DNA of 64,000 bases from Strix aluco. Its lineage: Eukaryota > Chordata > Aves > Strigiformes > Strigidae. Shown here piece by piece: positions 12,243 through 57,216 of this stretch; within the stretch, counting starts at the first letter, position 1; each line of letters begins with the position of its first letter. The DNA lies in assembly GCF_031877795.1 (NCBI RefSeq), contig NC_133931.1, forward strand, positions 25,914,264 through 25,978,263, read 5' to 3'. The notes under the pieces were generated by a model. It saw only the letters and a program-made list of their open reading frames with translations. It did not search any database and had not been told where the DNA came from. The position numbers and the translations under genes are program-made.

Positions 12243-12321
12243 CGCGGCCGCCTGCCCCAAAGACACCCCGACAAACAACCGCACAAGCAGCGCCCACCCC
12301 CGGAGCGGGCGGCTGCGGCTA

Positions 12322-12467: not shown

Positions 12468-12478
12468 AAGATGGCGGC
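12468..12478 (+). promoter_or_regulatory. YY1-type site AAGATGGCGGC
   Basis: A second, perfect YY1-type motif in the same island, read on the plus strand. The motif includes an ATG with a good initiation context, so it could also begin a short divergent reading frame (see findings). Confidence 0.45.
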
Positions 12479-12720
12479 TGCGGGGACACGGAGGCGGCTG
12501 GGGCTCGGTCCCGTCACCTCGGCGCTCGAGGTGGGGGGGTCGCGGCTTGGCGCTGCCCACACCCCCAGGAGGGAACCTGGTGGAAGAACAGACTAGTCCC
12601 CTCCTGAAATCGGTGTGAGCGTGGGCTGGCGTCACCTCCACCGTGGCGCTGGCTCTTCTGTCACGTCCCAGCACCACCGCAGCCTTCCCTCCACCGGCTG
12701 TCCGCCGTGGCCGTCTCCCC

Positions 12721-15757: not shown

Positions 15758-16159
15758 TTACAAATGTTCATTTGAGACCTTATAGAGTTCTTTAAGTTTG
15801 TCAAACTTTGACCCCCACTCTTGGAGGCAATCATAATTTAAATCTTCATCACCACTAATGGAGTCTAAGGAACTAAGGCTCCCTGCTAGAGAGCATTGCC
15901 CCTCTAAGCAGTAAAAATGAATACTGTCAGATGGAAGATTCTGTAGATCGTTGTCTGCATCCCAGATGATTTGAGAAACATATTCCTTGAAGTCTGGGAT
16001 GCTGTTAACAGCTGATGTTGATTGGTTTGGATGTGCATGTTTTGGGACTGAGTCTCTTTTTGGGCCAGTGGGTGTCCTGGAGTGTGGAGCAGCTGCCCTC
16101 AAGGAGAAGTGGGGAATAGTATGGAGAGGTTTCTTCAGTTCATCTATATTGTAAGCAAT
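15758..16159 (-). CDS. Type III cadherin exon w32 (catenin-binding tail, stop)
   Basis: The last coding exon has 133 codons and a TAA at 15760-15758. It begins IAYNIDELKKP, the end of the p120 region. A variable proline-rich stretch follows, then the beta-catenin-binding domain: WDADNDLQNLPSDS, SLAGSLSSLDSISGDEDLNY and WGSKFDKLKELY. These align with the classical ADNDP..AGSLSSLNS..YDYLNDWGPRFKKLADMY pattern. The acceptor is a long T tract ending CCAG. Confidence 0.96.
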   Translation of the reverse strand: MAYNIDELKKPLHTIPHFSLRAAAPHSRTPTGPKRDSVPKHAHPNQSTSAVNSIPDFKEYVSQIIWDADNDLQNLPSDSIHFYCLEGQCSLAGSLSSLDSISGDEDLNYDCLQEWGSKFDKLKELYKVSNEHL

Positions 16160-19100
16160 CTGGAAAAAAAAAGAATGCAAATATCAGAGAGAAACAACAC
16201 AAAAGGAAATAAGTTCCAAAAAATGTTTTAAAACTCAAAGCAACACAAAACTGGATTCTGTGAGTTTTCTACAAGCTGAAGAAAAGAGAGGGCCTAGTTC
16301 AGAGAGGTAAGTTCAGATGATACCAAATCACTTTGCGTAATGATAGTGTTCAGCTAAATCAAGAATGCTGTGTCCAGAGCAGCCTCCTCAAAGGTGGCCA
16401 CATATGACCAGCATTGTGATAGGCACAGATTGGGCTGAAATAGAAGCCTCCCACTCAAGAGTACTTCAGGTTAAAAAAAAAATAAAAAAAGCCAATTGGA
16501 TATGGACAGTAAGTTAAATAAAAGGTCTGGGAAAGGAAGGTGAGGAGAGGTTAGATTTGCAAAGACTGGATTGAAGCTGCGTCATACCTGGTCACGTTCT
16601 CCACCTCCTTCTTCATTGTAATTGAAGACATTTTCTCTAATATCCTCCCAGCTTTCACGCTCTTCAGGAATGTGATAAATTCCTCCTTTCCGAAACCCTG
16701 AACTTCCCCATTGACTCCACACTGTGTAGGAGACCAAGAGTGCTGGAAGAAATAAAGACACATATTTATTATATGACATATGACAAAGTATGATGCATAA
16801 TAAACAAGTAGTTATATGACTCCTGAGATATTAAATCAACTCTTAATTTGACAAGCAAATTCCCAGGTAAGAAATGTGTAATTGTTAATATACAAACAAC
16901 TTATATTCAGGAATGTAAAGAATCATCTATGTATATTACGTCATAAACTTCATTAAAGGGTATTTTACTTACCTAAAGGAATCCATTTAAATAGAAGGCA
17001 TTTTGGCCAATCTCTGGCCTTTCACCAATCCTGAGTAAATAAGATACCCAAAGTAAGTAAAACACTGTTTTAATGAAGGTTACAAGTGTAATATAATCAT
17101 GGAGTCTTTACTATTCTGAGATGTGTATGCAGTTTATCAATATGAAAATAGTTTTATGGTGTTATTTTCAGCCAAAGTGTGCCTGAAACAGGACACACTG
17201 TGACCATCTCTTCCTGCCCCACACTCTTAATGAGGCTTGCCTTGTTAAGATCATAAACTTTCTAGAGGAAGATCTCTTCCTTCCTAATATGTGAATAGTA
17301 GGTACTAGCTGTAGGTCCTACCTATTACAAATGTAAGGGCTCAGGGCAGGTGGGAGTTTCAGATGGATGTGGCTGCACACAGATTCACACACATAGATGG
17401 AAAGCTCTTACTTAAGAAGGATTGAAAATCAGTGATTCTAAAGCGAGAAGTCCTAAATTTGCTTGAACTGGCTTCAAAGCAAGTAAACTGTAACTATGTG
17501 CTGGTGCCTGTCTCTTAGCATCCTCAGGTGAACTCCCAACTGATGATCTCCAGAAAAAGTGAAACACTGATCACAACATCCAAGGGTAAAGCAGACTTGA
17601 TTCAACGGAGCAAGGTACAAGATTAAAAAGAAAGAAAAAAGGTACTTGCTTTCCTACCTAGGAAGACAAGGAGGCACATGCTGATTGCCAGAATAGAGCC
17701 AGAACTGAGTCCAATGGGTCTTCCAGCCTTCACCTGGCTAATTTCACACCATCTTCCCTTGTAACCTTCGGGGCAATGGCAGATAGTCTTGTCTTGGGAT
17801 TGAGCCACACAGGTACCCCCATTCCTACAGGTCCAGTGTCCACAAGGTGATGAAGTACAGTGTCTGAGCCCTGTAAGGTTGTCAGTCACTTCTACCTTCC
17901 CAGCTGGACACCTGAACAACAAAAGCAGAAGACATCTTTTAGGCAAGCAAAGCACGTGGAGTTGTATGTTGTTTTGTGCAAAGTTAGTTAGTATTTCTTT
18001 AAAGCAAATAATTAAAGTATTTTCAATCAAACCACAAATCCACATTGATAGTATGAAATACATTTAAAGTCTAACATAGTGAGCTAGTAGGCTTATGAAA
18101 ACATGAACATATGTTCTGCTTTCCCTATCCAGAAGGTATGCAGAAGAGCTTCACTCCTTCCTTGAAAAAAGGGATCCATCAGCTTCTGAACAGACTAGCT
18201 CTTTTTCTACAGATGTGTTTAAAACCCCTAGAAGGAAATGAATAGCTGAGATCAGTGGGAAAAGGGCTAGCAAGCACTTAGTATAAGCTTTGTAATGTTC
18301 ATTTGGACCTTTGGGACGGATGTAATTGAACTCCTCAGAATGACCCATCTTGTCTTTTAGGACTGCAGAGAAAGTGATTTCTTCTGCTATGTAATTGAAG
18401 AGGCCATGGAGGAATACCCTGAGGGCACAGACCTGCTTTCTGCAGTCCAAAGAAGAAATGCTAGTGAGTAAATGGAAGAGCTTTCATATTGTTCTTCCAC
18501 AAGTAAACTGAAGAAAGGAGTGTCCCAAGGCACACTTAAGACCATCTCACAGCCTCTTTTCATCAAGCCTCAGAAGTGCCAAATTTCAGCTAAATTGAAG
18601 GAATTCAAGTGGCTCCTCTCAGTTCTGCATGTATGTATGTTTGGGGTTTTTAACAGAAATGCCTGTATTTTGATTTGCATATTTTAGCATATATTTTGAA
18701 ATTTTACTTTAAAGAGTGGATCGTCTCCAAGGAACTAACTGTGTAAGATACCAGCTGGTGGGCTTTCGTTCTGACCCTGGGCAGCCAATTTTAGAATCCA
18801 GTTTTGTGACAGTCTAATTTTGAAAGTCTCATTGATTCATACAAAGTATGATTAGTTCCAACTTCTTTACAGAAAATATATGTAAATATATATCTTGTAT
18901 ATGCAATATACATTTTATACATATATATACACACTATATATATATATGCTATATAAGAATATATATATTTTCACACAGAGGAGGAGAGTCCAAAGCTTTT
19001 GCAATCCACCTTTCATCAAAGAGCATTTCACTTCCTCACTGGCCTGTGATCTTCTCACCATGGAAAAAATGGTGGAGTAAATAGGTTCCATATCAGACTT

Positions 19101-22100
19101 GCAGGAAAAGGCCAGTTTGGTCCATGATGGGCGATGAGATGGAGAGAAGGATTTGTCCTTGGGATGCCCCTCTCTGGCCAGCAGCAGCAGGGAATTTCAC
19201 TGCTAGAATCAAGCTGCCTGAACCAAGGTGGAAAGAAAGAGCTTCCCAACCACCCCTGGAGGAAAACAAAAGCTTAATGTACCGGCATTCATATTTTCTC
19301 CACAGGTCTACACAAAGGAAAGGGCTGTGACAGGGGTGGCTGCTGCAGGCACTGGAATGGCATCCCATCATGACACCTTGCCGCCTCAGAATTAAGCCAA
19401 ACTCTGTGTTTTTGCCTTCCACGAGAAGTGGCTGACCATTCAGCTGGACATCACGCATACAACCTGCATCAAAGCAGGGGAGTGTACAGAGAAATACATT
19501 GAGTTAGCAACTTCCCCACCCCCAATACATATGCAGGAGACCTTAGAGCATTGTAGAAAACTTAAAACATTTTTAAGAAGATCCTTATACTGCTTATCAG
19601 TTTTATTTTAGAAGAGCTACATGTGCGTGTGTGGTCTGGCCGATCTACAGATCGGCAATGCCTCTCCCAGACAGCTTGGTTGTACCAATGCAATGATTTA
19701 GCAGAACTGTCCTATGAATCAGGACAGCTCCAGTAAATTAATCTAGATTTAAAGTATGAACTTAAAAGTGGGGCTGAATGAGAAGCAACAGAATGGAAAA
19801 AGCTGTCTTGTTGAACCACAATCTCAAAGTCCCAGTACCCCACTCCAGGAAATCAAGAGAGCACCATGAATTGCCTTGCAAGTCCTTCTCCTCCTACCAA
19901 GAGGTGTTGTGTCTGTTCCTTAAACCCTTCCAAGGCAAAAACGGAGTGAAGATTGCAGCTTGAATTCCCTGCTTGGGTCCTTTAGCATGGGAAATAAAAA
20001 TCTGAAGTGCTATTTTTTGATATCTACAGGAAATGTCACATCTTCACTAGGACCAGATACAATGGCAAATAGAGTTGAACGTTGGCTCTGAATTCCCTAG
20101 TAGAGGAGGTGGGATTTCATGGGCATAGTAGTCTCCACGGGAATTCTTACTCAGGTTTTACACTCTCCAATGCACTCAAAGATGCCACTTTTAGGCTTTA
20201 ACTCCCTCCTTTTAGGAACCCATCATATCACTTACCTTGGAAATCGCTCTCTGAATGATTGGGAAGGCGGTTTCCTAGCACGATGCTTGCCCAATCCATT
20301 TCAAACCATCTATTTGTACCCAAGACAGAGGTTACTTCTCGATCACCTCCACCACTATTAACACGCAGGGTAAATTCATTGTTGTAACGCTCCATGGTCA
20401 GAAGAACCCACTGGCCATTGTTTATACGTAATGTCCTCATTCTCAGAGAGTGATTTTTGTCCCCCATGCTGAAGTTAATGCTAAAGAAACCTTCAACCAT
20501 CTAGAGGAAGATGATAAAGACCTTTAATAACAGAAATGCACTTCTAAATGTTATTACACAGTCCTGCCTCAAGAAATGGACCTGAGTTTTTAAAATTAAA
20601 ATGGCACTCTTGTTTCTAAGTGCTTTATTCCCGAATAAAAATTACAAGAAAACTGCAGGTTTAGGAATTACTTTCTTAAATTATTTTCTTAAATTTTCTT
20701 AAAAAGAGTTATTCTTTACAGGCCACTCTTCTAACTGACATGAACCTTTTTATCAGTCTTCTCCCTATTGATGTCTACCTCTAAGTCTTCCCAGCTGACC
20801 CTTCTGTTACAGTTGCAATAATTAGCCTCTGTCTAGTTAATATAATCCAGACAGCTTTTTTCAACAGCAACACAAATGTAGAGACAAGCTGGAGACAGAC
20901 AGAAGCAAAGGGAGAAGGCAAACAGGACAAAACAGTCTTCCCCATTCATGTGTATTAAATGTACTCACCCGTACATTTTGCAGGCAGTGAAACAACTAGA
21001 ATCTATGCTATGAAAGGGTAATACTGAGAAGGACAACACAAATGGGAATAGTTACCCTCATGTGGAAAACTCTTGCTCTTTATTACATTACAGAATAGGT
21101 GTCTTTAATCAGAAACTGTATCTTCTTCTCTTACTAAGGTACTTCATGAAAAATCAAAAGCACTGAAACAGAATGGCTTTTGGACTGCTCACCTCCAGGT
21201 GGATGTATCCATTCCCATCTGCAGAGGCCAAGCTGAGAAGGGTGCTGTGCGAGATACGGGTACGCACCATCAGCTGGATCCGAGTGCTGTGAGTGCTGAG
21301 GATGCTTCTCAGCTCATAATGGATCCAACTGTCCCTTCCAAAAGCCCATTCTGGAAGAACTAAGCACAACACACACAAAAACAAAGTGAAAATCCCAGAA
21401 ATTATGGCTCCCTCAGATCTCTACTGCTTGAGAATGAACCAGTTCTGAATGCCAAAGTTTTAGTTCTTAAGAAATTTTGTCAACACAATGAAGCATCATG
21501 AGGATGACATAATGATGAAAGTAATGAAGCACCCCGCCGCTGCCAAGGGAATTAAAAGAACAAATCAAGGATACAGAATTTAGGCAGGAAAGAGATAATT
21601 AGATACCATCTCTAACATTCTGCCTGTCACAAGCTACATGTTCTACCCAATCACTTCTACACTGAACCCAATAACTTTTTTTTTAAGATCTGAAATGTAT
21701 CTTCCAGTAAAGTAGTTGGTGTTGATCTGAAGACCAAAAAAAAAAGAGACTCTAATGTTTCTTTCAGTAGTTTAGTCCTGTGGTTAATAACTGCCACTGT
21801 TAGAAAATATGCACTTTACTTCCCATTTCAGTTGGCACAAGAGAAAGCCTCAGGGCAGGCACAAAGTCAAAAGTCATGTGGTTTTTTTTTTTTTTATCAG
21901 AGATTAAGTCAGTGGTTATTATTTTAACTGGGGAAAATGCACTGAAATTAATTCTTTCCCCATTATCCTGGGGAATCCATCTGAGAGTCATCCAGCAGAG
22001 AGTTTGATGAAGATATACTATACACTTCTGTGGAAATCAAAAACCACAAAACCACCCAGACCCTGGTGTTCTTATGCAGCAGGCACCAATTTCAGTCTCA

Positions 22101-25100
22101 CTGACAGCAATCCTAGATCTGCTTGTTCTGGTCACAGCCTAGTTGAAAAAAAAATTCTTCTTACCAAATAAAGACATAGTCCAAGTTAGACAGGAAGAAT
22201 GTTGGATCACCAACAGCTAATCTGAGGTCAGTGTCATGCAAGTAAAAATCCAAAGAGTGCCCAGCTCATCCTGGGGCATTTAGTCTGGTTCTCAGGACAT
22301 GAAATATCAAATGATCAAGAGATTTCATTTCTGTACTCTCTTTTCCTCTCACTGTTTCTCCTCTTTCTTTTCTTTCTTGAAGTGCGTTTTCTTTTCTCCT
22401 CTAGGTTATGCCCCTCATATTATTCTTCCTAACCCACTGCTCTCTCTTGTTCACTGTCTCTGCACCTACAGGCTCTAGCTGATGAGCAAAGATGGGTTTT
22501 CTTGAGGCACCACAGTGACTCCTGTCCTGAGCTGACTGATCCTTGCTGCGAGCATGGCTCGGCCATTCATAAAGCACCAGCTGAACACCAGCATTTCGCA
22601 GCCAAATATATTGGAAGAAGCTGGAACCAATCGATGTTTTCCTATTACATCAGGATATGGCTTATGGATTTTGAGTAATTACTTTCTGAGCGCTTGGTTT
22701 GACCCATAGTGGTAAGGGGTAGGAGCCAATACAGCAGTTGCGTTTGTGAACCAGCATCCCAAGTTAATACAAAAAAGAGTAAGATTTCAACCTAGGCAGA
22801 TGTTTATAAACCAGTATCATCCGTCTGCAAAACATTAATACAAATAACTGAGCTATATTAACCATTTCTGTGGACATTATAAACACTTTAAACAGTGAAA
22901 ACTCCAGGCCAATTATGATTCCAGTCCTCACCCCATTGAACAGACAGCTTCTGCTGAGTAATTTACTGTCACACCTTTTAAGTCTTGTGTGGCAGACGGA
23001 GAAAGGAAGAGAGGGTCTGGCTGCTTGCATAGGGTATTATTGTTCCATATACAAAAAGGAGAAGTAAGTGCATTGAGCTGAAAGGATATGTGTACTACAC
23101 TACCAGCCCTGTCTACTAATCACAACACATTGATTCAACACTAGCTTGAATGTGCTTCTTTCCAGCTGCTCACTGCTGCTCATCCTCATCTGTAGCTCAT
23201 TGAAACTACAGGACTGAGGGGGCTAATTCTCTTCCAACACTACACAAAGCCCCCAAAGTTATGGTGCTCATTATAGACTGTTATGATCAACCCCATTGTT
23301 TGCACCTTGTACCTAGACACGGCAGGTAAAATCCCAATAAACACCTGTAACTCACTTCTGATTTCTGCTTCAGAACAATGGCCAGTGAAGGTATAAGATA
23401 GGGAGGGCAGAGCCAACTTCAAGTGTGTGTCCCCTGTACCCTGAATATGGCTGTGGGCCACTAGGAGTTAAAGAATTTATTTTCTAAATTTTTGAATTGT
23501 GCTAAAATTTGCACTTTCTTACAATGTCTCTGAGGTTTTCATTATCCACCCTTGCATGCTTTTGTCCTCTGATACATATTTCATGCTGAATTTGTACAGG
23601 ATAATGCATTTGCTGGAGCCAGCCTGATATGTCCTCACATGCACTCACTGCTGTGGTCTAGGGGCATTGCACAAGCTTCAATTCATTACAGTGACAGACA
23701 CAAATGCAATTATCCCTGTTTTATAGATGGAAAATTGGGCCTGAGGATAACTTGAGGCCTATACCCCCAATTTGCACAGAGAGAACACACCAAGCTGGCA
23801 ACCTTACCTCTCTTATAACCACTGTAAGGTAACAAATAGTACCATGTTCGTTAAACTACATTTTGTGATCAGTATGATCAGAGAAAGAATGCATGGTGCC
23901 GAATGTTTCATCTTTCACCACTGAGAAATAAGGTGCTGTGATGAAAAGGACAAAACTACTCATCTGACCACTTGCTCTCCCCTACAAAGTAAAGCAGGTC
24001 TCAACAAGACCCTCATCTGTGACATTATCTTTATTCAACAAGAGTTAGAAGGCTCTTTACATCATTACAGGTCTAAATCATTCCCAGAGTACAGCATGGT
24101 CTTATTATGCTACTCAGTTCAAAGTTGTGGCAAATTTAGAGTAGTATGTTTGAGGCAGTTCCCACAGATCCTCACCATGAATTTCTCCCTAGAGCTTGAA
24201 GTACCTTTTTCACATGCTGGTCCAGCATATCCTGGAGAACAGTCACAGCGAAAGAAACCCCAACCACCAACACACTTGCCGTGGGTGCCACAGGAGGCCA
24301 TCCCACCGCTCTGACACATTTTATCCATAAGGACACAGCCGGGAGCGCTGTTCAAGGACTCTGCAGGGCGCTCTAAATCATAGACCTGGAAAAGGACAAA
24401 GAGAAGCATCACATCAGGTGTCTACAGTTAACAGCAGTAAACCCAACAGTGGTCTTAGTAGCCCTACCTTACTATCAACAATGACATTGCGTATGCAGCC
24501 AACAAACCCTCTGAAGTGCCTTTGTGAATCGTGGTAAGGCAAAGTCTTCTTAACTCCACCTAGCTGCAGGGGCTGATGTCCACTGAAGAGCTTACCCATG
24601 CTGAAGGGAAGTGAGGGAAAGAATCAGTGGCATGGAAAATACAGCAACTTGGCTGAATTTTTCCCTTCCTTTTTCCTTAGCTCTTTTGAGTAATCATGTT
24701 TCTAGTTCTTGTTGTTTGTTTTGCTGGGGTTTTTTACCTTTGAGATCCCACAGTCTCTTCAGAGGCTTCACAGGCAGCCAGATCCACTTGGGAGATCTTC
24801 TTAATGACACTGTCATTGTCTCTAACTGAGACATTTACGCAGTGGTCAAGAATCAGCTTCACTTTCTAGAGAAAGGCATTATTTAAAACATTTGCACCCG
24901 GAGACGTGCATACATTTTAATTACACATTTTCTTTCACTTAGCAGAGGGGTGAATAGTAACCAGTAGTTACAGCACAGGAAACTTTATTAAAATAATAAA
25001 CCACTTCCACGTACTAATCTGGAAGGTGTATAACTAAGAAGCCACACAAAAGAAAGATCTGACTCTACCATGACCATGCCAAATCATCGACGCAGTAGAG

Positions 25101-46100: not shown

Positions 46101-49100
46101 GATGACTGACTTCTGAGCCATCTTCAGCTTAATAAGGCATGGGTAACTTTGCCCTACATGACATTTCCATAGAACTGGCAAAACATGTCCAAAATGGAGT
46201 TGTTGCCATGTGCATCATCAATCATTTTTTGCCATTTTGAGGCAGTTATGCTAGGAAGGGCCTGTTCCAGTCCAGCAATGAGGGAGTACACTCATCACTT
46301 GTGGGTGACATCAAGTGTAGAGGGTCCAAGTGTACTGAAGTGCAGGATTTTACTGGAGAAGCATCAAGCAAAATTAAATGGAAGACTGATGAAAAGCACA
46401 TCATGTGGGGATGAAAAAGGGAATGGCACCAGGACAAATGGGAAGAGCTATCTCAGCAGCACAGTTACAGGAGGCATCAGGGTTCACAGCCAATCGCAGT
46501 CTAGAAGCCAAGGATTTTGGGTTGTTTGACAAGAGATAAATACCACTCCAGCCTATTCAAACAGAGGTGCTGTGTCAAAGAGACACAGATGACAATTGCT
46601 CTTCTAGTTGGGGCTGACGACTTCTCAGCTAGGATGTCATGTTGTGTTTTGGGCCATTGCATAAAAATTCAGTTTGCAGAAAAATTAGGCAGGGAAAAGC
46701 TGCAAAGGGAAGGGTTAAGATCTGTCTGATCTGTAGGAGTGAAGACTGTCAATGTTTTTAAGAGTATTGCAATGAATAAAGAGGACAGTGATCAATTCTG
46801 CATATTTACACTGACGATGGATTAAGCTTTAACTGGCTTAGCTAGCAGCAAAGGAAGACTGGTCACCTGAAAAACTGACCACTGTTATAAGGAACTACTA
46901 ACCAGGTTCATGTTGTGGTACTGGAACAGGTAGTTAAGAAAAACTCACACTGATAGCGACTGTTCTGAAACTTGGGATCATTGTCATTGACGTCAGCAAT
47001 AAGGATGGTGATCTGACACACGCCGATCAGCGGTTCCTGTGCCTGGTCGGTAGCGGTAACAGACAGCGTATACTCCCTCTGCTTCTCCCGGTCAAAACTC
47101 TGTGTGGTTGTGATGACTCCTGGGAACACAGACACCTCCTGTTCTGCGTGTCACAGCCTTGGGACTGAACTTGCAGAAAGGGACCAGCACTTCTCCCACA
47201 CAGGAGGAAGCTCTGACTGCATGCAGCACAACCATCAAACTTAATCCACACCAACTGCACAGCGTGTGTCTTGGACAATACCAACTCCAATTCTCCTGTC
47301 TCTCCTCTCCTCACATGCCACATACTGCCAGAAATCAACAGCTTTCTCTCCTACTGCCTGATAAGGAGCTTCAGTCTCAGTACCTTGTTACCTCACTCCT
47401 CATGGAGCACAGAAGGACTTTCTCTTCCTCATCAAGAGGCATCTCTTAGGTTTACTCCAGTGATAGTCCAAGTTACTGAATATTTCAAAGACAGATCGTT
47501 ATTACTCTGGGGAAGAGTCACAGCACAGAAGGCACGAGTGGTGTGACCAGTCACCTCTACTATGGGAGCTGGAGCCTGCTTCATTGAACAGATTAAAACA
47601 GGGTAGAATCATATAGCTCAGTTAATAAATTGAACAATTTTCTCCCAGTATACAGCTTTTCCTCCCCACTGACCAGGTCTCTCTCTGTCTCAGATCTTTT
47701 CTTCTGTTTGGGGGACTTTAAACTGGCCTTCTGGAGGCCACTTCCAGACCTATGTACATACTATGCTAGGGACCAGGATTCTGCTCCTTCATCTAAAATC
47801 CTTCGAGACTGTCTGTCACTGCCCTGTTCTGGTATGAGGGTTTTGCCTCTATACGCACTGCACTGGACCTCCTATTTGTGCAGGAGATGAGAAATAAACC
47901 ATGGCCACACTGAAGGGATGAACAAACTCAAGCTGTCAGTCACACATTCTGCTCTGCATTTTTATGGCTACACTTGATCCAATAGTAAGATAACTGATAC
48001 AGAATAGCTTTTAATCTTCCTATTTATCTGGGGTTTGTTTCCCTACTTAATTTGTCATTTAAATCTCTATCATCTTAATTTAATCTGTGTGCATGGCTAT
48101 CCATATACTCTGAATATTTTTCAGTGTTTATCCACAAGCTGTTACAGCTAACCCTGCAGTTACACCATTAAAGCATGAGTCCAGCTGGACACACTCATAC
48201 AGTGGCATTCTCATTACAATATAACGCCATTTTCATTTTTTTTTCAGGAACCTGAAAGAAACTAACCTGTGTCTGGGTCAATGCTGAAGCCCAGGGAAGC
48301 TCCGTCTTGGTGCATGAGCCCATACTTCACCTCTCCGTTAACGCCAAGGTCTGCATCATAGGCTTCTACCTGTAGTACATATGTGCCTGGAGGCTGATTC
48401 TCCAGAACCCATGTGCTGTCACTGTAGTAAGCGCACTAAAAATACACCCAAACATCCAATGCTATATATTACACAGAGCCACATTAATTTGCTGCACAGT
48501 GTTGATATTTTTTCCAGCATATCTGAGAAGAACGCTGAAGAAAATCACTTCTATTACTTATACTCACAAAGAAATCAAGCTCTAAGGCAGATGAAGGAAA
48601 AAGGAGAATGAAAACTTTACACTTTAAGTATGAAGAAAGCTGGCTGTGTGTTCACTTACAGATTCATTCTGCTCTGCACACACAGTCCCTTCAGCCCGTT
48701 GGCAATCTCCAGTAGCCAAGGAAAGTCTATAACCCCAATTATGGGTGGGAAAAGAATATCTACAGAAAGACATCTTACCTCTCTGAAGACAGGCTTGTTG
48801 TTATTAATGTCATTAACTCCTACAATAACCTCAGCAAAACTGCTGAGAGGGGTGGGTCCCCCTGAGGCATTGTCATCTATCGCAGTGATGTTCAGTGTGT
48901 ATTGTGGCCCTTTCAGGTTGGGTGGTGGGTTTCTGCGGAGTTTAATGATACCTAAATTTGGAAGCATAAAGTGTCATTTTATTTTACCATGTAAACAAAC
49001 AAACGAAATCAAGTGAGCATCACACTTCTCTGCTGCTGTATTGTTGGTTCAGTTTGTACTTTGGTTGCATTCATTCATCTTAAACTGCACAGCCCTTGGA

Positions 49101-52100
49101 CCAGGACATGAAATTTTGGTTGATATTTGGAGAAAAAGCATCATATCAAAGAGCTAATTCTCACTGATATGAAGCATCCCCATTTGCAGATTATATAAAT
49201 AGGGTGCTTTCTTATGATTTTTGACACACAGGTGAAGCAGACTCAATACATATTAGACAGTAAATAACAGTGTTCTAAAACCTCTTTCCTTACCTTTCTG
49301 ACTATCCAGTTCAAAGTTGCCCTCCTCATTGCCTCCCATAATCAGATATAGCAGCCCATCTCCATCAGGGTCCTTTGCCCGAACAGTAGCCACTAAGGTG
49401 CTGGGACCAGCATCTTCCGAAAGGAAAGTTCTGTAACTGATGGACATAAGGGAGCAGTGGCAGCACATTCAGTATCAGAATAACCATCACCATGTTAACC
49501 ATCAGCCAAAGGTTAGAAATTCACTATGAATGTAATTTTTTTTAAGCTTTGGGCATGCAATCATGCAGTCTTTAATCAGCTTAAGACAAGACTTCAAGCA
49601 TCTTTGTCTGGCATACAATTTGTATTTTAGGATTGCAATCCTGCATTTTTCGTATATGTGATTTCCAAGGATCTTTTGGAAGATATCAATATGCCCCGTA
49701 CTACATTACATTGCAGACCAGGATCACTTATCTCCTAAAGATGAGAAACAGGACTAATATCTGTCATGCAGTGTTTCCTATGTCCCTATCTACTAATGGA
49801 AAGCATCAGATACTACAGAGATGATGTAAACCAGTATAATTTTGTAAGTTAATGTACTTATGGTTTGTATTTAAAACATATCCATACTTTAAACTTATGC
49901 CGAAAAGTAGAAATTGTATTCATTCAGGAAACAGGGCCTCATGAAGTTAGCTTATAACACAATCTGATGATGATAAAATTATGTTTTAATGTTTGCTAAC
50001 TACCATCTTTATCTGTCAAATATTTATACATGGACAATCATTTTGAGACCCAGAAGTCAACACAGTCAAAATGATTCCCTATAGAGTTAGGTCTTTTATT
50101 CATTCTGTTCTCTATATATAAATATAAAGTCAATATGCTGGTATCACAACTGGTGTATTTTTTTTATACAATCTAGAAATGAAGGGCCAACTTCTAAAGC
50201 CTTTCTTCATACAAATTACCCCTTGATTTCACTGGTAGTTACAATTGCACTAAACACTGTTTAGCCATGTGTTATTAAGATTACACGTATGAACAGCATC
50301 TATAAAAACCAAAGCAGGTGTTAAAGCTGGCTTACATGGACTGGGAGAAGACAGGAGCCTCGTCATTCACATTGGCCATTCGAATGCGCACAGTCGCTGT
50401 CCCTGTCCGAGGGGGATGTCCTTTATCAACAGCTATCACCACAAACTCATACATATGGTTTGCTCGCTCAAAGTTCAGCCTCTGGTTAGAATTGACGACC
50501 CCGTGACGTGTGATGGAAAAATCAGTGCTCTGGATGAAGTAAGTGATCTCAGAGTTGGAGCCAGAGTCGCAGTCTGTTGCAAGAACTATTGGAGAACACA
50601 TTTAACAGGACAGTCATGCTGCAGAAGAGGTTTGGTTATGCTATTTCCTATCAAGTCAGCTTCAGATACCTTTGGTTTTTTGAGAACAGACATCACCCAA
50701 ATCTGTTTTATTTGTAAAAGCCTTACTTTTGTGGCAAGAGTCTGGGAACTCCGCAGGAGGCTGGGAGTGAAAAAGCAAAACAACTCCTCCCCTCCTCCAA
50801 CCCAGGCTGAGCGATCGCAGCAAGGCGGGCTTGCAAGAGAGCTGTGATCCCAATACTACACAACAAGCTTTGTACAAATAGCAGTCAACACTGGTAATTA
50901 CCACACAATCAATATGCATGTTGGTAGAACATTATCAGTCATAAACTGTGTCCTCACTCTCTCTGGGGATGCCGTTCAAATTTAATTAGCTCCCAGCTAT
51001 GTTATAGCTAAAGTACTTTTTAATTACCTGGCGCTTCAAGGTACAAAGAGTGATTAAACATTCCTCCCCAGCAAGTGTTTATTCAGTATGTTGGGTGTCC
51101 CATCTGCTCAGAAGCAGCAAATTAGCAGAACAAAGAGCTAGAGCTCACAATGTATTATCAAAAGTGATTTTTAAGAGCAGGAGATCACCTCTTTAATTAC
51201 CCTGCCATTTTTCTAGCCAAACAATGAGGCTTCAACTCATACCCACACTGGTATTAAACAAACTCCTTATTCTAGCAGGAGGACACAGATGCAGCCATTG
51301 CAGTAGCACACAGCCTTTCGGAAGTGGATCAGTGATTGCAGTACACGGACACCCTTGCAGACAGCTACAGCATCATCCAAAACTGAGATGAAGAAACGAC
51401 GACCCATCACCATCAGAACATTAACTCAAAAAGGGTAGGGGAAGAGAAAGTTTTGAAAAAGCACACTGAAATGCTGTGCTACTTAGTTGCAAAAAAACCT
51501 CAACTACCTCTACCTGTGGAAAATTACTCATCTCAGTTTAAAAGGACATTTAGGGTGGTTGTAACATTTTGTTTAACATCTCTCAAAATCCTGCTGTGAA
51601 TAAATGTTTGGGTGTGTTACATACTACAAAAGCAAGGATTTTAGAGTTAATCACTCCTCTCTTGCTGTACTGAAAGACAAAATATATCAGAACTCAAGAA
51701 AGACTGAAAGTGACTTAAAATTGTTAAATTTAGTGGTTCAGTATTGTTTTTAGAATGACATGCAGAAAGTGAAAAACATATTTGATTTGAAAAGTTCTGA
51801 TTTAATCTGGGGTCACTACTGAGACATTGTGACCATTCACAAAAATACATTTTATGTGCTAAGGATCATACTTTTTTCCCCCCAGATGTTTTCTGGCAAA
51901 TAGGGAATGTGACATTTGTACATGATAAAAACATGGCCTTACTTTCCAATAGCAACTGGGAATTCCATTCCCCTTCCATTTCATTCCATCCTGCAAAATG
52001 ATCTGCATTGCAAAGGTATTTCGAGGATCATACAGCAACCACAAGCATGTCTGTGCTGGTTCTGCCCATGCTCTGAGCTAGCTTAGTGCAAGCTAACTCC

Positions 52101-55100
52101 AGCTCAAAGCCTAGTATGTCAGCACAAAGTTGCCAGCTTCAACTCTAAGCCTTGCTCTGCCAGCACAGTGGTGCAGCTGAAGCAGTACGTTAATCCCTGC
52201 TGAGAGCATACCTTCTTGTTTTTTAGATCATAGCTTGTTTTCATCCAGACGTCTTACATGTAGTGAGCATATATCTGCCTGTAATGACTAAGTAGACAGA
52301 CTGGCTCAGCTAGTGTAGCATCAGCACTACAAACATGATACAAGCCAGACTTCAAGTGTGTCGAAATAAAAATGGTTGACAACTAAAATCTACATTTACA
52401 TCATCAACAGTTTTAACAAATGGCATATATCCTGGTATATTTTTCATTCACTGATAGCAACCAATCAGCCACAGAATGGCAAAGGCGGCCTTGAATTTGC
52501 ATTTCTTTTTGTTTGTGGGACATCCTGATCTTGCAACATCCCACCCCTCAAGGAACTATAGTCAGGGTAAGAGCTGCTTTTTCTGAGATGGTACTTGCTT
52601 TGGCAGTCAGAGTTAGTGGCACAGTACTCATTCAGCACAGGTTACAGGTGACTGCATGTACCACTTCCTTGCAGCCGCTACCAACACTGATCTGCCTTTC
52701 AACATCAAGTGAGCATTCACCCACCCATTTTTACTGAGCGGGATGTGACACTGTCACTATACTTCCACCCCACATCTTCTTTTTTAAGAAGCCTCTTTCT
52801 CTTGAAATGTACCCTGTGTGGCAAGACAACCAAACGGAATGCAATTGCAAACCATACTGCACAGTTTGCCATTCTGTTTGCTTTGGACATGGGGCATACT
52901 TTTCTTCCCCACGACTGGGTGAATTTTGATCAGCTTTACAAGTCTCCTGGAGAGAAGAGCATTCATCTTTTTAACAAAAATCACATGCTTAGGGATTTTT
53001 AGGAGTTGATTGTTCCAATCAACTTATTTCTTCCCAAGAGCCATTAAACCGAAAAATGAGCCACAGTAAGCTCTGAACTCTCCTGGTAAGTGTTCAGAGA
53101 AAGCAGTCCCTGCAGCCGTGTTATCAGCATGTCACTATGCAAGGGAAGCTAAGCTTCTTATCACCACTGTGACCTGCATGTGTTCAGCTTCAAATTCAGG
53201 AAATTTACATTGTCGTCTTCAAAAGACATGTCTTAGACATGTAAATTTTTGCTAAGTCTTGCCTTGGCACTAACCCATTTCTCACATGGTTCATAAACCC
53301 CCTGAGGTCTCAGCCCATGTTCTTGTTACCTACCCCAGTATCTGTCCCTACTTCCAGTTTGAATACTGACAGCGAGCCTGTAAGCATTCTCCCAGTTTTA
53401 GGCAGAACACATCTGTGGCATGTACCACATCATAACAGACTACTTCAGATCTCAAGACATCTTTGAAGGCATTTAATTGACACCAGTAAAACAGGTTGGA
53501 GAATGGACTTTTGTTCCTTGTCTGTTGGACTCTGAAGACTGAGACAAAAGGTGCAGTATCATCCAAGTTCAGTCTTTATTTATGCAGCCACAGTATTTTG
53601 AGAGTGACCTTGAAGTTTTGGTTGGAACTTGAGGCTTAAAATGATTTCCAACAGCTCTAATCTTTCAGTAGGATTCTAGCATCTAAATATGTTGTCTGTG
53701 ACCTCAGAGTTTATGCGCAAGTGATATGTGGCCATCTTAAACCCAACAAACTTGGAATGATGACTGGTAAGCCACAACCATAAATATAAAACTTCACAGG
53801 CTTTCCAAAGGTTTCTCCTTTAACACTTTGTAAGTCAATTATACAGCATTAATACCTATTTGATAAAACTAGCTGCCCATTTAGAAACTTCTTTTTTTTT
53901 CCTTAACATATTAAGAAAACAAAAACTACTTGCAGCTGCTTCCAGGACACAAAAAGATGAGCAAGTTGACTTAATGGACAGCCACCAGATTTAAAGGAAA
54001 CAAGCTATGGCAATCCAGTGACTTACTGGATTGGCACCTGTCAGCTGCCTCAACTGCTCTTGAAATACCACAAAATTCCTCCTTGGGCACAGCACAGTGG
54101 TCCTCACCTGAAGACACTCACGACTCTACTTCCAGGGTACCTAAAAGCCATCTACAGACCTCCAGGAAAGCTACTATCCACATCTTACAAAGGCAGTGCC
54201 TGCTGTGGAAGAGACAGCACCTCCTCACGGTGAGAACATGAACATGTAACACAAACTAGAAGGTCTGTGGCAAGACTGAAACAAAAGGTACGGGGGTGGT
54301 CCTCACCTTGCAGTAGAGATGTGCCGACAGGAATGGTTTCGGGAATGTTGTCTCTGCTGTAAATGGAGTGCTGGAATTCTGGAGAACAGTCATTTTCATC
54401 GGTGATATGGACCATGACCTGAGATAAAAGGACGTGCTGAGAGGGGATTTTATTTTCTACAGTTAGGAAAATGGGCGCCTCATCCTGGACACTGCCTGGG
54501 CAATCATTGTTTTTGCTGCTGTCCTGTCCTTACACCTTTGATGCTAAACTTTTTCTTGCACTACTCCTGTAACACAGAGGAGTATTATCTCCTCCACTTT
54601 TAAGTAGATGGGAGGCAAAGCCAAAGGGGAAGAGCAAGAGGTATTTTGCAGAGCCTAGATCTGAACCCAGCTCAGAGCCCAGCCTTCTGCCAGGACCATA
54701 AGGCCTCCTCCCTCCTGAGCATCTTCACTGTGTGTGTAACTGGTCCTGCTAACAAGGTAACAAAGATTGCAGAGACAGTGGGTAGGAAGTGAAGTGATCC
54801 ATGTACCTCAGCCACGCTGCTAAGAGTGCTCTCAACTTCCATGGCTTTCAGTAAGAGGTGATAGAGGTGGTGCTCACTCTCGTAGTCCACAGGGTGGGTC
54901 AGGCTGACCTCTCCACTCTCCTGCCTCACCCTGAAGAGTCCGCTGGGGTTCGTCAGCAGAGTGTACGAAAGAGGCTGGCTCTGGAAAGAAACAGCCTCAA
55001 CAACTGCTATTCTGTAAAGAATGAGAGAATAACCTTTGCTTCAAAACAACAACAACAAAACGTGTCTCCTGAGCACCTAGAAGAGGAAGATGAGGATGAG

Positions 55101-57216
55101 GAAAGGTGAATTGCTCATTCTCTGTCAATGGTGGGCTCAGCTTTGTATTCAGACTGGAAATCCCCATACTACAGGGAGCCCACCCACCCTCTTCTCTCAC
55201 CAAACTGATCCCCTGACATAGCAGGGCTGGGGTAACAACCCATTCCAACCCCCATTAACATGAAAACACTTTTTTCTTCCTGACTGTACCCTTCCAAATA
55301 CTTGACAGCAGTTACTGGTTTAGCTTCAGTTAGAGATAAATGAGCTACTACAGTTTTGACTTTCTTTGAAGTTGTATATTCAGAAAAGGAGCAGGTTCAG
55401 AGATGGATGGGAAACCAACAAAGCACAGGGCCTTTCCAGATCCTGCTGTCCACCTTGCCAGGACATGAAATGAACATTTTACCTCCCTACCATGACTTAT
55501 GTTTTGAAGCTCTATCTCACACCAGTCTCTGGCCGGTGTGACAATACACTTTAAGCTTGTCTCAGTGAAAGCTCCAGGGAAGGAGAAAAATTTCCTCCTC
55601 CTCCTCATTCAGTCTCTTTTAAGGAGTAAGTGGCACATCTCCAGCAATTTTTCCTACTTCATCAGCTTATTTTGAGGTTTCCTGCTCCTTAAAGGCCCTA
55701 TGGCACTGCTCCACCTGCTACTTGGAGCCTTAAAAGCCCATGCTGCTCTCAAACAGCTGAACAGTGACAATAAAACCAGAGCCAGCTCGGCAGCATCTCC
55801 CCGCTGTGGCTTGGCTTAGCTACCCTTCACGCAACAGCAGAGCTCCTTGGAGACTTAGCTGTATCTATTTGCACTTCACACGGGTGTTGTTATCTCAAGA
55901 GTCTGGCAATGACTTGCCGTTCTAAAAATTTAAATACAAGTCAAACAGGATACAAACAACTCCAAATCTGGTTAATTAAAACACAGTATTTTTCCAGCAC
56001 TCATTTATATCTGAAGTGCTCCAGGAGATGCGTAGCCAGGAGTTTGGTTGTTTTAATTCATGATGCAATGCAGTAAGACCCCAAGAGCATTAAAATAATA
56101 ATTTCAGCAGAATTCCAGTATCCCAGACTACGCCATGTGCCACACTGGAGACTCTCAAACACCAGAAAAGGCATCATTTCTTTTAGAAAACACAACACTA
56201 TTTTGAAAGTGTAAGAGGCAAACAGTTATGCATAGGCCTGAGAAGCAACAACACAAAAATGTCACTTTATTGTGCTCTGCGAAGTTCCTCTCAGACTGCA
56301 GGCAGGGAGCTCACCTAACAAAGTACAACTTACTTTTCTCCTGCTGGAGTATTTTCAGGGACAGACACACTGTAGGACATGTTAGTGAACTGTGGAGGTC
56401 GGGAGCCTGCCAGGATGGAAACGGAGGCGTAGGGGGTTTTGTTGCCATATTCATCGGTGGCTTCCACAGTAACCACGTACTCCTTGTTCCACGTCAAAGG
56501 CAAGCCAGTCGTCATGATAACGCCAGTATCCTTATCTACTCGGAATCGTTCTTCACCACCTATCAATATGTGCACAAAGCTGGTCTGAAAAATTCCCCAC
56601 AGCGAGAACATTTGCATCTTCACTATTTTAAGGTAAGTTATCCTCAAATCATCTACCTATGTCCTTGCATGCACTTCTTTTTTCCTCTCTAGTTGTGCAC
56701 CTTATCTTTCACTCACACCATGCTCTGTTGACCGGTGCAGTGTAAAAGAGACAAGAATGGATGAGAAATGGAGCCTTAAGCTAACGGTAAGGCTGCAATC
56801 GATTTCAAAATAGAAGTAAAGCAAAGAAAGTGGCAGCGAGAAGGATTCCCACCCACATAACCGTTTTATTTAAAGCACCTCCAGTCTCTTCTTGCTGTAC
56901 CCACTGTATCTTTAAGGATTTCCCAAGGGAAAAATCTATCAATGAAATGATAAAATGGGAGATTGTTAAGAAAAATCTGCAACTTAACAGAATTTTATCA
57001 TGTTTTTCCGAATAGACCTACCTGCAATGAGTGTGTAAGTTATCCCAGCACTGGTGTTCTCATTGTTACCGTAATATGCGACAAGCTGGTAGATGAGAGT
57101 GCCTTTTCGGGCATCTGGATCGACACGTGCCAGGTAGGGGTATGGGTACATGCCCCAGGACAGAAGTTCCTCTTCTGGGGCAAGGAGTGTCACGTGGCAG
57201 AGGTACCAGTCATTAT
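15758..57216 (-). CDS. Type III (nonchordate-type) classic cadherin, Hz-cadherin-like; 32 coding exons, N-terminus missing
   Basis: A single-pass adhesion receptor. Thirty-two exons (listed separately, w1-w32) join in phase to give 2525 residues ending at a TAA. Residue order: about 14 EC repeats (1-1520), a type III membrane-proximal region (1530-1700), EGF (about 1765-1805), laminin G (1810-1994), EGF (2010-2054), laminin G (2055-2210), two EGF-like modules (2215-2315), transmembrane helix (about 2322-2348), and a cytoplasmic tail with p120- and beta-catenin-binding motifs. The EGF/laminin G block is diagnostic of type III cadherins such as Drosophila N-cadherin and chicken Hz-cadherin, and is not found in mammalian classical cadherins. 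The identification with Hz-cadherin rests on architecture and memory of the family, not on an alignment. The signal peptide and any further EC repeats lie upstream of 57216. No symbol is given because none is certain. Confidence 0.93.
16588..16742 (-). CDS. Type III cadherin exon w31 (end of TM, juxtamembrane domain)
   Basis: It encodes ALLVSYTVWSQWGSSGFRKG and the juxtamembrane segment DIRENVFNYNEEGGGERDQ. The latter is almost identical to the p120-catenin-binding region of classical cadherins (EEGGGEEDQ). Acceptor TCTTCCAG, donor CCAG|GTATGA. It ends in phase 0. Confidence 0.95.
17658..17911 (-). CDS. Type III cadherin exon w30 (EGF3 end, EGF4, transmembrane)
   Basis: It encodes RCPAGKVEVTDNLTGLRHC, a six-cysteine EGF (CRNGGTCVAQSQDKTICHC, GYKGRWCE), and the hydrophobic segment IGLSSGSILAISMCLLVFL that begins the transmembrane helix. 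The donor TAG|GTAGGA splits the helix between two exons. Acceptor TTGTTCAG. Confidence 0.93.
18880..18972. repeat. AT-rich TATATA low-complexity tract
   Basis: Repeated 'atatat' and 'tatataca' units in the cadherin intron between w29 and w30. Short frames in it are not meaningful. Confidence 0.8.
19283..19463 (-). CDS. Type III cadherin exon w29 (end of laminin G2, EGF3)
   Basis: It encodes GCMRDVQLNGQPLLVEGKN, closing laminin G2, then GVMMGCHSSACSSHPC and FLCVDLWRKYEC, the first loops of EGF3. The CVDLWR motif is shared, as remembered, with Drosophila N-cadherin. Acceptor GATGCAG, donor GCCG|GTACAT. Confidence 0.91.
20236..20500 (-). CDS. Type III cadherin exon w28 (laminin G2)
   Basis: It encodes MVEGFFSINFSMGDKNHSLR, NNGQWVLLTMERYNNEFTLR and FEMDWASIVLGNRLPN, the middle of laminin G2. 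Acceptor CCTCTAG, donor CAAG|GTAAGT. Confidence 0.93.
21193..21350 (-). CDS. Type III cadherin exon w27 (laminin G2)
   Basis: It encodes EWAFGRDSWIHYELRSILST, TRIQLMVRTRISHSTLLSLA and GNGYIHLE, the first strands of the second laminin G domain. Acceptor CTTCCAG, donor GAG|GTGAGC. Phase 1 in, phase 0 out. Confidence 0.92.
24205..24385 (-). CDS. Type III cadherin exon w26 (EGF2)
   Basis: It encodes VYDLERPAESLNSAPGCVLM and an EGF module: CGTHGKCVGGWGFFRCDCSP followed by GYAGPACEK. The six-cysteine spacing is visible. Acceptor TTTTCCAG, donor AAAAG|GTACTT. Confidence 0.92.
24468..24600 (-). CDS. Type III cadherin exon w25 (end of laminin G1)
   Basis: It encodes MGKLFSGHQPLQLGG and FRGFVGCIRNVIVDSK. 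The LQLGG and FxGCIRNV motifs are the C-terminal hallmarks of a laminin G domain. Acceptor CCCTTCAG, donor AAG|GTAGGG. Confidence 0.93.
24738..24865 (-). CDS. Type III cadherin exon w24 (laminin G1)
   Basis: It encodes KVKLILDHCVNVSVRDNDSV and IKKISQVDLAACEASEETVG. Acceptor TTCTCTAG, donor CAAAG|GTAAAA. Phase 0 in, phase 2 out. The LILDHC strand continues the laminin G sheet. Confidence 0.9.
25643..25770 (-). CDS. Type III cadherin exon w23 (laminin G1)
   Basis: It encodes ELSSGVPSLTIRHSSGELFL and VADRRWHNIKIINDGK, with the W-H-N strand typical of laminin G. Acceptor TTTGCAG. The preferred donor is a consensus GC site, AAAG|GCAAGT; a GT six bases downstream (exon end 25637) is also in frame and would add Ala-Ser. 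Confidence 0.85.
26063..26277 (-). CDS. Type III cadherin exon w22 (end of EGF1, start of laminin G1)
   Basis: It encodes CKCSANFHGPDCQQTKHSF, completing EGF1, then laminin G1 strands: SRISLEFITEVADGLLLYHG and ERQDFIAL. Acceptor TTTCATAG, donor TTAG|GTTAGC. It ends in phase 1. Confidence 0.93.
26641..26860 (-). mobile_element. CR1 LINE fragment, minus orientation
   Basis: It begins 'aatcatagaataccaggttgg', the reverse complement of a CR1 3' end, and continues with 'catatggtccaacctttctt' and 'ctgaggggattattccaatgg'. It lies in a cadherin intron between w21 and w22. Confidence 0.88.
27927..28204 (-). CDS. Type III cadherin exon w21 (EGF1, first part)
   Basis: It encodes LENILDINTTQIGIDECVTA, a cysteine-rich stretch, then the EGF start NPCLNGGTCVDTDLGY. 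The last EGF loop is completed in w22. Acceptor CTCCGCAG, donor ACAG|GTTGGT. An alternative GT five bases downstream would break the frame. Confidence 0.91.
29193..29425 (-). CDS. Type III cadherin exon w20 (NC region)
   Basis: It encodes DITPEEFISQSPENQSKYYQ, MKKLLSEIISVQLENVHIFS and GPPYYKAEKLNGNVAASRVW. The ITPEEFI and GPPYY segments correspond to the nonchordate-specific NC region of type III cadherins. The acceptor TATCGCAG is chosen because it gives the GSVRI-K-DITPEEF junction; an upstream AG would add a non-homologous stretch. Donor TGG|GTAAGT. Confidence 0.9.
30041..30225 (-). CDS. Type III cadherin exon w19
   Basis: It encodes YFILNDNSGLLTIKEGTPPG, TYNIRVRVIDGVWPDVVSTV and ends HNAGSVRIK. 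This is an EC-like fold without calcium motifs that continues into the NC region. Acceptor ATTACAG, donor AAAAG|GTAAGC. Confidence 0.91.
31004..31097 (-). CDS. Type III cadherin exon w18
   Basis: It encodes ILPTTVLGQVRAPDDDDWDH and KIYQFEGKSS, then two bases of Arg. This opens the membrane-proximal region. The TVLGQV..DDDDWD motif is shared, as remembered, with the corresponding part of Drosophila N-cadherin. Acceptor TTTTAG, donor CAAG|GTATTT. Confidence 0.9.
33005..34622 (-). CDS. Type III cadherin exon w17 (large exon, EC10-EC14)
   Basis: A 1618-base exon carrying most of EC10, all of EC11, EC12 and EC13, and EC14. Calcium linkers read DVNDNAPLF, DVNDHAPVF, DSNDHAPFF and DVNDNGPEF. The last junction, DQNDHPHSAGYM, is degenerate. 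Acceptor TGTTCCAG, donor GATG|GTAAAT. All other EC repeats are split over small exons. Confidence 0.96.
35345..35420 (-). mobile_element. Short CR1 3'-end fragment, minus orientation
   Basis: About 75 bases: 'aatcatagaatcatttaggt' followed by a match to the CR1 3' end reading 'attgagtccaaccat'. It is a severely truncated insertion in the intron upstream of w17. Confidence 0.85.
35606..35889 (-). CDS. Type III cadherin exon w16
   Basis: It encodes the rest of EC9 (GANARLRYQITSGNVKGVFD, QPLDYEQEQRYELRLVASDG, linker VNKNDEAPIF) and the EC10 A strand (LEELTDLPVLVLK). Acceptor ATTGTAG, donor AAAG|GTAAAA. It ends in phase 0. Confidence 0.93.
37562..37705 (-). CDS. Type III cadherin exon w15
   Basis: It encodes the end of EC8 (TAYVRIFVSDVNDNAPAFPR) and the start of EC9 (YEVSIDEDRDVGSPIVTATA, SDKDE). 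Acceptor CTTCTTAG, donor GAGG|GTGAGT. It retains the full DVNDNAPAF calcium linker. Confidence 0.92.
37865..38051 (-). CDS. Type III cadherin exon w14
   Basis: It encodes the body of EC8: VHYLILKDASEDYQFFTIEP, ETGIISTHASFDREKRASYL and IEVQSQDSSESARPGVHGQP. Acceptor TTTTCAG, donor ACAG|GTAAAA. Confidence 0.92.
38270..38450. mobile_element. Possible ancient amniote LINE fragment
   Basis: The stretch with 'ccagtatttaatctccaaca', 'cagtggccagtaggag' and 'tccctggtgtttccccagct' resembles an old repeat common in bird and reptile introns. It is assigned from remembered pattern only. Confidence 0.35.
39225..39352 (-). CDS. Type III cadherin exon w13
   Basis: It encodes the EC7-EC8 linker DVNDNVPFF and the first strands of EC8: NYEVSVPEGADVGTSVIQVL, ATDLDSGLHGE. 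Acceptor TTTTGCAG. The donor, GAGAG|GTTTGA, is weak after the GT but is the only one that joins w14 in frame before a stop. Confidence 0.88.
39353..41998 (-). other. Cadherin intron between w12 and w13
   Basis: About 2.6 kb. Nothing beyond short chance frames was seen; no repeat recognised. Confidence 0.5.
41999..42248 (-). CDS. Type III cadherin exon w12
   Basis: It encodes the body of EC7: TIKATSPLDDPRVTYNLEEG, LLVAEPLDFETTKFFTLTVR and the last strand ending VCVNIT. LDFE replaces the usual LDRE. Acceptor TTTTTCAG, donor ACAG|GTAAGC. Confidence 0.92.
43187..43354 (-). CDS. Type III cadherin exon w11
   Basis: It encodes the rest of EC6 (TTPVNNYIVATDGGNRSSTV, ELTVTVTNALSQPPRW) and the start of EC7 (VTIPENTIRDTKIV). 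The EC6-EC7 linker lacks DxNDN. Acceptor TTTCACAG, donor AGTG|GTATGT. Phase 0 at both ends. Confidence 0.91.
43480..43652 (-). CDS. Type III cadherin exon w10
   Basis: It encodes the first half of EC6: FLSEDTPVGTSFLHVAAHDS, DQGVNAAVTYSMLEHQ and STGWVYVNRLLSQ. Acceptor TTCAAAG, donor CAG|GTAATG. Phase 1 in, phase 0 out. Confidence 0.92.
43653..46948 (-). other. Cadherin intron between w9 and w10
   Basis: About 3.3 kb. Short chance frames on both strands, including a 114-codon plus-strand frame at 46185-46529 without recognisable domains. No clear repeat. Confidence 0.5.
46949..47119 (-). CDS. Type III cadherin exon w9
   Basis: It encodes the second half of EC5: GVITTTQSFDREKQREYTLS, VTATDQAQEPL and the linker IADVNDNDPKFQNSRYQ. 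Acceptor GTTCCCAG. The donor is CAGT|GTGAGT, selected over an overlapping GT two bases earlier by phase with w10. Confidence 0.92.
48267..48435 (-). CDS. Type III cadherin exon w8
   Basis: It encodes the first half of EC5: CAYYSDSTWVLENQPPGTYV, then QVEAYDADLGVNGEVKYGL and FSIDPDT. Acceptor TTTTTAG, donor ACAG|GTTAGT. The DADLGVNGEV motif is a typical calcium-binding DxD strand. Confidence 0.92.
48779..48951 (-). CDS. Type III cadherin exon w7
   Basis: It encodes the second half of EC4: GIIKLRRNPPPNLKGPQYTL, NITAIDDNASGG and the linker VNDINNNKPVFRE. Acceptor AATTTAG, donor GAG|GTAAGA. It ends in phase 0. Confidence 0.92.
49294..49430 (-). CDS. Type III cadherin exon w6
   Basis: It encodes the first half of EC4: TFLSEDAGPSTLVATVRAKD, PDGDGLLYLIMGG and FELDSQK. 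The acceptor is AGTTACAG; the alternative CAG six bases upstream would break the frame. Donor AAAG|GTAAGG. Confidence 0.9.
50336..50585 (-). CDS. Type III cadherin exon w5
   Basis: It encodes the body of EC3, from VLATDCDSGSNSEITYF through LNFERANHMYEFVVIAVDKG to the linker ANVNDEAPVFSQS. Acceptor CCAATAG, donor CCAT|GTAAGC. Phase 1 in, phase 2 out. Confidence 0.93.
50586..54306 (-). other. Cadherin intron between w4 and w5
   Basis: About 3.7 kb, one of the largest introns. No exon, RNA gene or repeat recognised. Confidence 0.5.
54307..54418 (-). CDS. Type III cadherin exon w4
   Basis: It encodes the EC2-EC3 junction: VMVHITDENDCSPEF (calcium-linker variant DENDCSPEF), then the EC3 A strand ending IPETIPVGTSLLQ. 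Acceptor ATCTCAG, donor CAAG|GTGAGG. Confidence 0.91.
54807..55011 (-). CDS. Type III cadherin exon w3
   Basis: It encodes most of EC2: IAVVEAVSFQSQPLSYTLLT, GLFRVRQESGEVSLTHPVDY and the strand ending STLSSVAE. Acceptor CTTTACAG, donor GAG|GTACAT. Phase 2 in, phase 0 out. Confidence 0.9.
56334..56559 (-). CDS. Type III cadherin exon w2
   Basis: It encodes the rest of EC1 (GGEERFRVDKDTGVIMTTGL) and the start of EC2 (YSVSVPENTPAGEK). The EC1-EC2 linker reads ILAGSRPPQF and lacks the DxNDN calcium motif. The acceptor TTGATAG is demanded by phase, although a stronger-looking CAG lies 26 bases upstream. The donor is GAAAA|GTAAGT. Confidence 0.87.
57022..57216 (-). CDS. Type III cadherin exon w1 (most 5' exon identified)
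   Basis: Acceptor TTTTGCAG, donor GCAG|GTAGGT. It enters in phase 1, so at least one exon lies upstream. It encodes NDWYLCHVTLLAPEEELLSW through ITYTLIAG. The second half is the first part of window EC1; the WYLCHVTLLAPEEEL segment is not a standard EC strand and may belong to the end of an N-terminal module. Confidence 0.88.

Follow-up and report, generated by a model that had tools for sequence, protein, structure and literature searches.

The minus strand of the 64,000-nucleotide window of Strix aluco DNA analysed here carries, from position 57216 down to 15758, coding exons 2-33 of the gene for Hz-cadherin. These 32 exons join in phase into 7595 bases encoding 2530 residues, and the sole stop codon, TAA, is terminal. 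The exon boundaries were set by alignment to the protein P0001 of Athene cunicularia, to which the spliced product is 97.3% identical, with all 2530 residues aligned and no gaps. The initial model had been built from codon usage together with splice signals. Gene finding by codon usage had overlooked several exons and added false ones, and was dropped for P0001 homology. A preliminary description, made from the sequence alone, had given the same coordinates and the same count of phase-consistent exons; exon chaining, and then the alignment to P0001, reproduced both exactly. Its model length of 2525 residues was nearly right.

The 31 introns within the window all end in an AG acceptor, and 30 of them start with a GT donor. 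The remaining intron, which follows position 25643, has a GC donor and falls in the part of the gene coding for the first LamG domain. GC-AG introns are a recognised minor splice class. The window contains no Rfam match at the gathering threshold. An open frame on the plus strand (62420-62812) has the look of a CR1-type LINE, an element frequent in bird genomes, and would correspond to its 3' part.

The exons of the preliminary model are thus real, but they do not constitute the whole gene, as exon 1 lies outside the window. The proteins P0127 of Tyto alba and P0002 of Pitangus have about 330 extra residues at the N terminus. When the first 260 residues of five relatives were searched against the window, no exon 1 emerged, and the extra residues are matched by a single open stretch upstream of it. 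Exon 1 comprises 1048 coding bases at C1:25988033-25986986 (73770..72723 on the scale of the window), about 9 kb beyond the end of the window. Its initial ATG is followed by a hydrophobic signal segment; a GT donor is present, and the exon is spliced to exon 2 in phase 1. The full Hz-cadherin has 2880 residues encoded by 33 coding exons, with no stop or frameshift. Exon 1 encodes the signal peptide and at least two EC repeats, and a third EC-like stretch can be discerned in it by eye. A run of arginines is present in exon 1 at residue 254 of the full-length protein, between the N-terminal EC repeats. It possibly represents a furin-type site, and would then be a candidate prodomain boundary.

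The extracellular part is dominated by EC repeats. A hidden Markov model trained on nine repeats of the same owl protein gives 17 matches: two in exon 1, 14 consecutive repeats (residues 377-1866 in full-length numbering; 33051..57136, where Pfam PF00028 also matches) and a weak EC-like match (residues 1887-1963; 30075..31083; c-E 0.0019) ahead of the nonchordate (NC) domain. Pfam, for which the protein was run in two halves, reports Cadherin in 10 and 5 stretches, Ig_Shg once, Laminin_G_2 twice, and PF00008 EGF and PF01049 once each. The NC domain corresponds to Ig_Shg (28043..30077; PF24811, E 1e-20). It is followed, on the same strand, by EGF-like module 1 (26247..27994), LamG domain 1 (24471..26153; PF02210), EGF-like module 2 (24209..24316), LamG domain 2 (19432..21222; the second Laminin_G stretch, part of which is matched by Laminin_G_3) and EGF-like modules 3 and 4 (17737..19362). 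For the EGF-LamG-EGF-LamG-EGF-EGF series proposed in the preliminary description, Pfam confirms both LamG domains and the first EGF (clear PF00008 match); the second EGF has a weak EGF_Teneurin match (E 1e-4) and a cysteine pattern seen by eye, and the last two were recognised from their cysteines by eye. Only two segments of the protein pass the hydropathy cut, namely the signal peptide in exon 1 and a single transmembrane helix (16726..17706), which is interrupted by an intron (17658/16742).

The cytoplasmic tail is encoded by the exon with the juxtamembrane, p120-type region (16588..16742), identified by alignment to tails of type I/II cadherins encoded in the owl genome, and by the final coding exon (15758..16159) with the beta-catenin-type region, where PF01049 scores 77.2 bits (cut-off 24) at 15779..15958. 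The tail aligns at all eight type I/II classical cadherin loci tested in the same genome, which were taken from 20 PF01049 matches, with 31-47% identity. Seven of these alignments cover both regions, and the one with L005 covers the beta-catenin-type region only. The approximately 14 EC repeats, the one transmembrane helix and the p120/beta-catenin tail anticipated by the preliminary description are therefore all present at the level of sequence.

Type III classical cadherins are defined, in an excerpt of PMC5473995, by 14-17 EC repeats followed by the arrangement NC-CE1-LG1-CE2-LG2-CE3. The owl protein has 14 EC repeats in the window, two in exon 1 and one weak extra match. Ig_Shg, EGF, LamG and LamG follow in this order by Pfam, the EGF between the LamG domains being weak and the last two being assigned by eye, and a single transmembrane segment leads into a predicted p120/beta-catenin tail. 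The proposal that a bird genome contains a type III classic cadherin is borne out by this EC array, the NC domain, the EGF and LamG modules, the transmembrane helix and the catenin-type tail. The DN-cadherin of Drosophila and further type III cadherins from invertebrates, as the same excerpt describes them, share with the owl protein an EC array followed by NC, EGF, LamG and a catenin tail. The three N-terminal EC repeats of a fish type III cadherin are reported there as too divergent for detection, whereas two N-terminal repeats of the owl protein score in exon 1. The type I/II classical cadherins resemble the owl gene in their tail, but have five EC repeats and neither EGF nor LamG domains (PMC5473995, same excerpt), which separates the owl gene from them.

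A named counterpart is available from chicken. P0015, which its source names 'cHz-cadherin isoform X3 [Gallus gallus]', shares 89% identity with the owl model over 2056 residues; it ends ahead of the transmembrane helix, and the comparison with chicken covers the part up to there. The owl gene, Athene, Tyto (Tyto alba is 93.0% identical to owl Hz-cadherin) and P0015 fall into one clade in both trees, of 44 and 54 sequences. For the larger set, a zebra finch record with a long branch and a sturgeon-INTS8 fusion were taken out of the smaller one and twelve sequences were added. Both trees were midpoint-rooted, and no invertebrate sequence was among the listed matches. Protein search, identity and trees agree on one-to-one orthology with chicken cHz-cadherin, which is what the preliminary description had concluded. 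According to an excerpt of the macaw genome paper (PMC3648530), orthologues of cHz-cadherin lie on chromosome 2 of chicken and zebra finch, and the gene was therefore already known in birds. The owl and chicken genes share clade and, by that excerpt, a chromosome-2 type of location (PMC3648530); the species is the only difference found in the part compared. The owl gene is the orthologue of an already published bird gene, and the finding is correct and ordinary.

The larger tree also contains a second group. The Hz clade comprises 32 of the 54 sequences (support 0.992) and the second clade 22 (support 1.0), and Callorhinchus is present in both. Judged from these sequences, jawed vertebrates hold two type III cadherins, whose split predates the divergence of sharks and bony fish, and the owl has both. 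The second vertebrate type III cadherin (recorded as 'neural-cadherin-like', with the zebrafish-type name si:ch211-186j3.6) has the same Pfam architecture including the tail (P0110), but is only about 53% identical to owl Hz-cadherin, forms a separate clade and lies on another chromosome. In the owl, its matched extent is C14:12517821-12561296 on the plus strand (G000; L013, L015). Its large exon is 97.8% identical to that of Bubo bubo and 95.7% to that of Glaucidium. A TAG in this exon was considered as a stop codon and rejected, as it is located at the exon start and represents the splice acceptor. An excerpt of a spider paper describes two spider neural-cadherins. In the literature searched, which included few subscription journals, there was no report on type III cadherins of platypus, on the two-paralogue history or on the platypus tail described below.

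Three other readings of the locus have to be weighed. A long EC array combined with EGF and LamG modules is also found in FAT- and CELSR-type atypical cadherins, which have no link to catenins. Ranked by E-value, the PDB entries that match the large EC exon best are CELSR1 chains, and the Pfam EC models of CELSR2 and FAT4 match parts of the owl protein. That PDB search, however, concerns EC repeats alone, and Cadherin-2 covers most of the exon (34-538). FAT and CELSR proteins are without a classical catenin tail and CELSR proteins have seven transmembrane segments, whereas the owl gene encodes a catenin-type tail, one transmembrane segment and an NC domain. Best matches to FAT- or CELSR-type proteins lacking catenin tails, which the preliminary description had named as evidence against its reading, were not encountered: the tail matches PF01049, and the best 120 of 6658 relatives are all neural-cadherin-type or unnamed, with long coverage. 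An atypical cadherin is extremely improbable.

The identical architecture of the two paralogues, and the public records that name both of them neural-cadherin or neural-cadherin-like, make it conceivable that the gene in the window is the second paralogue rather than Hz-cadherin. It shares about 53% identity with the second group, but 78% with alligator Hz-cadherin and 97% with Athene; the owl's own second paralogue sits on C14, and the two clades are separated with supports of 1.0 and 0.992. The chance of such a confusion is negligible. The single GC-AG splice site at 25643 might be taken as a sign of a decaying or non-functional copy, but 2880 codons without a stop or frameshift, the gapless alignment to Athene over 2530 residues and the conserved tail make decay very improbable too. 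It is almost certain that the locus contains an apparently intact owl gene for Hz-cadherin, by its sequence a type III classical cadherin, and one of two such genes in jawed vertebrates that arose by a duplication older than the separation of sharks from bony fish.

The surroundings of the two paralogues have a component in common. Genes of the DPY19 family give 32 exon matches in the owl genome, distributed over three loci: C1 at 25.999-26.025 Mb, about 11 kb from exon 1 of Hz-cadherin; C14:12590355-12615274 (12.590-12.615 Mb), at a distance of about 29 kb from where the matched exons of the second cadherin end; and C1 at 154.9 Mb. The second cadherin is thus located near a DPY19-family gene, as Hz-cadherin is. 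That two of the three DPY19 loci adjoin the two type III cadherins suggests a duplicated segment. The relative orientation of cadherin and DPY19 gene is not alike at the two loci. From the human map, we take the DPY19 genes to be DPY19L4 and DPY19L3.

On the other side of Hz-cadherin lies INTS8. The sturgeon protein P0039 (Acipenser sinensis) consists of a type III cadherin, which shares 71% identity with the owl cadherin over 1605 residues, fused with the TPR repeats of INTS8. This fusion is evidently a run-on gene model from the cadherin into INTS8, and it shows the synteny to be old. The INTS8 part of P0039 matches four places in the 10 kb that adjoin the window on its left, on the strand that also encodes the cadherin. 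Pfam finds no family on the two open reading frames of the window thought to be INTS8, and it is therefore the exons outside the window, to its left, that place the gene. With these exons and the sturgeon model, the placement of the locus upstream of INTS8 in the preliminary description holds. The stretch 11628-12800 of the window is GC-rich and open in several frames on both strands. It is probably the first exon of INTS8, a CpG-island exon read from the minus strand, and the open frame near 12 kb presumably encodes the INTS8 N terminus.

Homophilic, calcium-dependent adhesion and coupling to actin through catenins are established for the cadherin family. By combining this with the domain structure, a likely mode of action can be outlined. 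The EC repeats would bind, in a calcium-dependent manner, to the same protein on an adjacent cell, and the NC, EGF and LamG domains would form a compact membrane-adjacent part. The tail is predicted to couple the protein to actin via p120- and beta-catenin. Tanabe, Takeichi and Nakagawa reportedly described chicken Hz-cadherin (cHz-cadherin) in horizontal cells in 2004. By analogy with the chicken orthologue, a role in retinal horizontal cells may be expected in the owl, not necessarily only there. For DN- and DE-cadherin, an excerpt of PMC8325961 describes EC repeats that form adhesive units, and a membrane-proximal part resembling a globule. According to an excerpt of a review that cites the chicken papers, certain cadherins are subtype-specific in horizontal cells (PMC4949263). 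A study of chicken trachea, also in excerpt, lists cHz-cadherin among the transcripts altered by challenge and line (PMC5424241), which argues that expression in chicken is not confined to the retina.

The history of the two genes in mammals is less ordinary. An excerpt of PMC10734073 already calls the loss of type III cadherin in mammals apparent, and the preliminary description expected the same at this locus. Each protein search scored about 7,950 candidates, all annotated proteins with lengths of 0.55-1.75 times that of the query, and one name was shown per cluster. With the owl query, platypus is the sole mammal among the best 120 of 6658. The platypus protein, P0073, is an automatic prediction of 2355 residues and an Hz orthologue. 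When it was used as the query, 1299 proteins passed at E 0.001, and among the best 120 the query itself is the only mammal, although teleosts and sharks are reached. With the alligator second paralogue as the query, 1906 passed, and the best 120 include no mammal, although again teleosts and sharks are reached. A full-length therian orthologue should outrank fish, whereas decayed remnants would be absent from annotated proteins. The expected loss thus agrees with the lack of therians among the best 120 relatives of P0073, but does not extend to platypus. Since platypus keeps an Hz orthologue, 'lost in mammals' would narrow, pending the therian locus, to 'lost in therians' for Hz-cadherin.

The preliminary reading would have been countered by an intact mammalian copy at the locus; the predicted platypus protein goes half way towards that, and its beta-catenin region is strongly diverged. 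The platypus and owl proteins are 65% identical in the EC repeats, 61% in the NC-EGF-LamG block and 92% in the transmembrane segment, and identity falls to 40% in the beta-catenin region (81 sites). Among the other 20 Hz proteins compared, this region is present in 17, with 57-95% identity to the owl, and three records are without it; no other Hz tail in the comparison is as diverged here as that of platypus. PF01049 does not match P0073 at E 0.001, but does match P0110 of the second group. The tail divergence alone is no proof of lost function, because the owl Hz tail likewise shares just 39-46% identity with four tails from the second group. Platypus does not have the lowest identity to the owl in the p120 region, at 50% over 36 sites, against 43% for Xenopus and 40% over 15 sites for Varanus.

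By combining these observations, we lean, if only slightly, towards the following course of events. The two cadherins would be a whole-genome-duplication pair, each near a DPY19 gene. The second one would have been lost before the monotremes branched off, and Hz-cadherin would persist in platypus, its beta-catenin tail eroding, and have been lost subsequently in therians. The p120 region, in which platypus does not stand out, takes a little off the confidence in this course.

Specialist attention is best directed at the two-paralogue history and the platypus tail, and the mammalian history is the part to pursue. The second paralogue is clearly distinct, yet the names in public records do not separate the two genes. 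A complete 33-exon reference with its GC-rich exon 1 can now be used, and the DPY19 gene, Hz-cadherin and INTS8 are firm neighbours by which the empty site in therians can be located. With platypus as a possible intermediate, the timing and manner of the loss of the nonchordate-type cadherins in mammals become directly testable. If the above course is true, platypus would capture an adhesion gene in the course of a decay that began at its tail.
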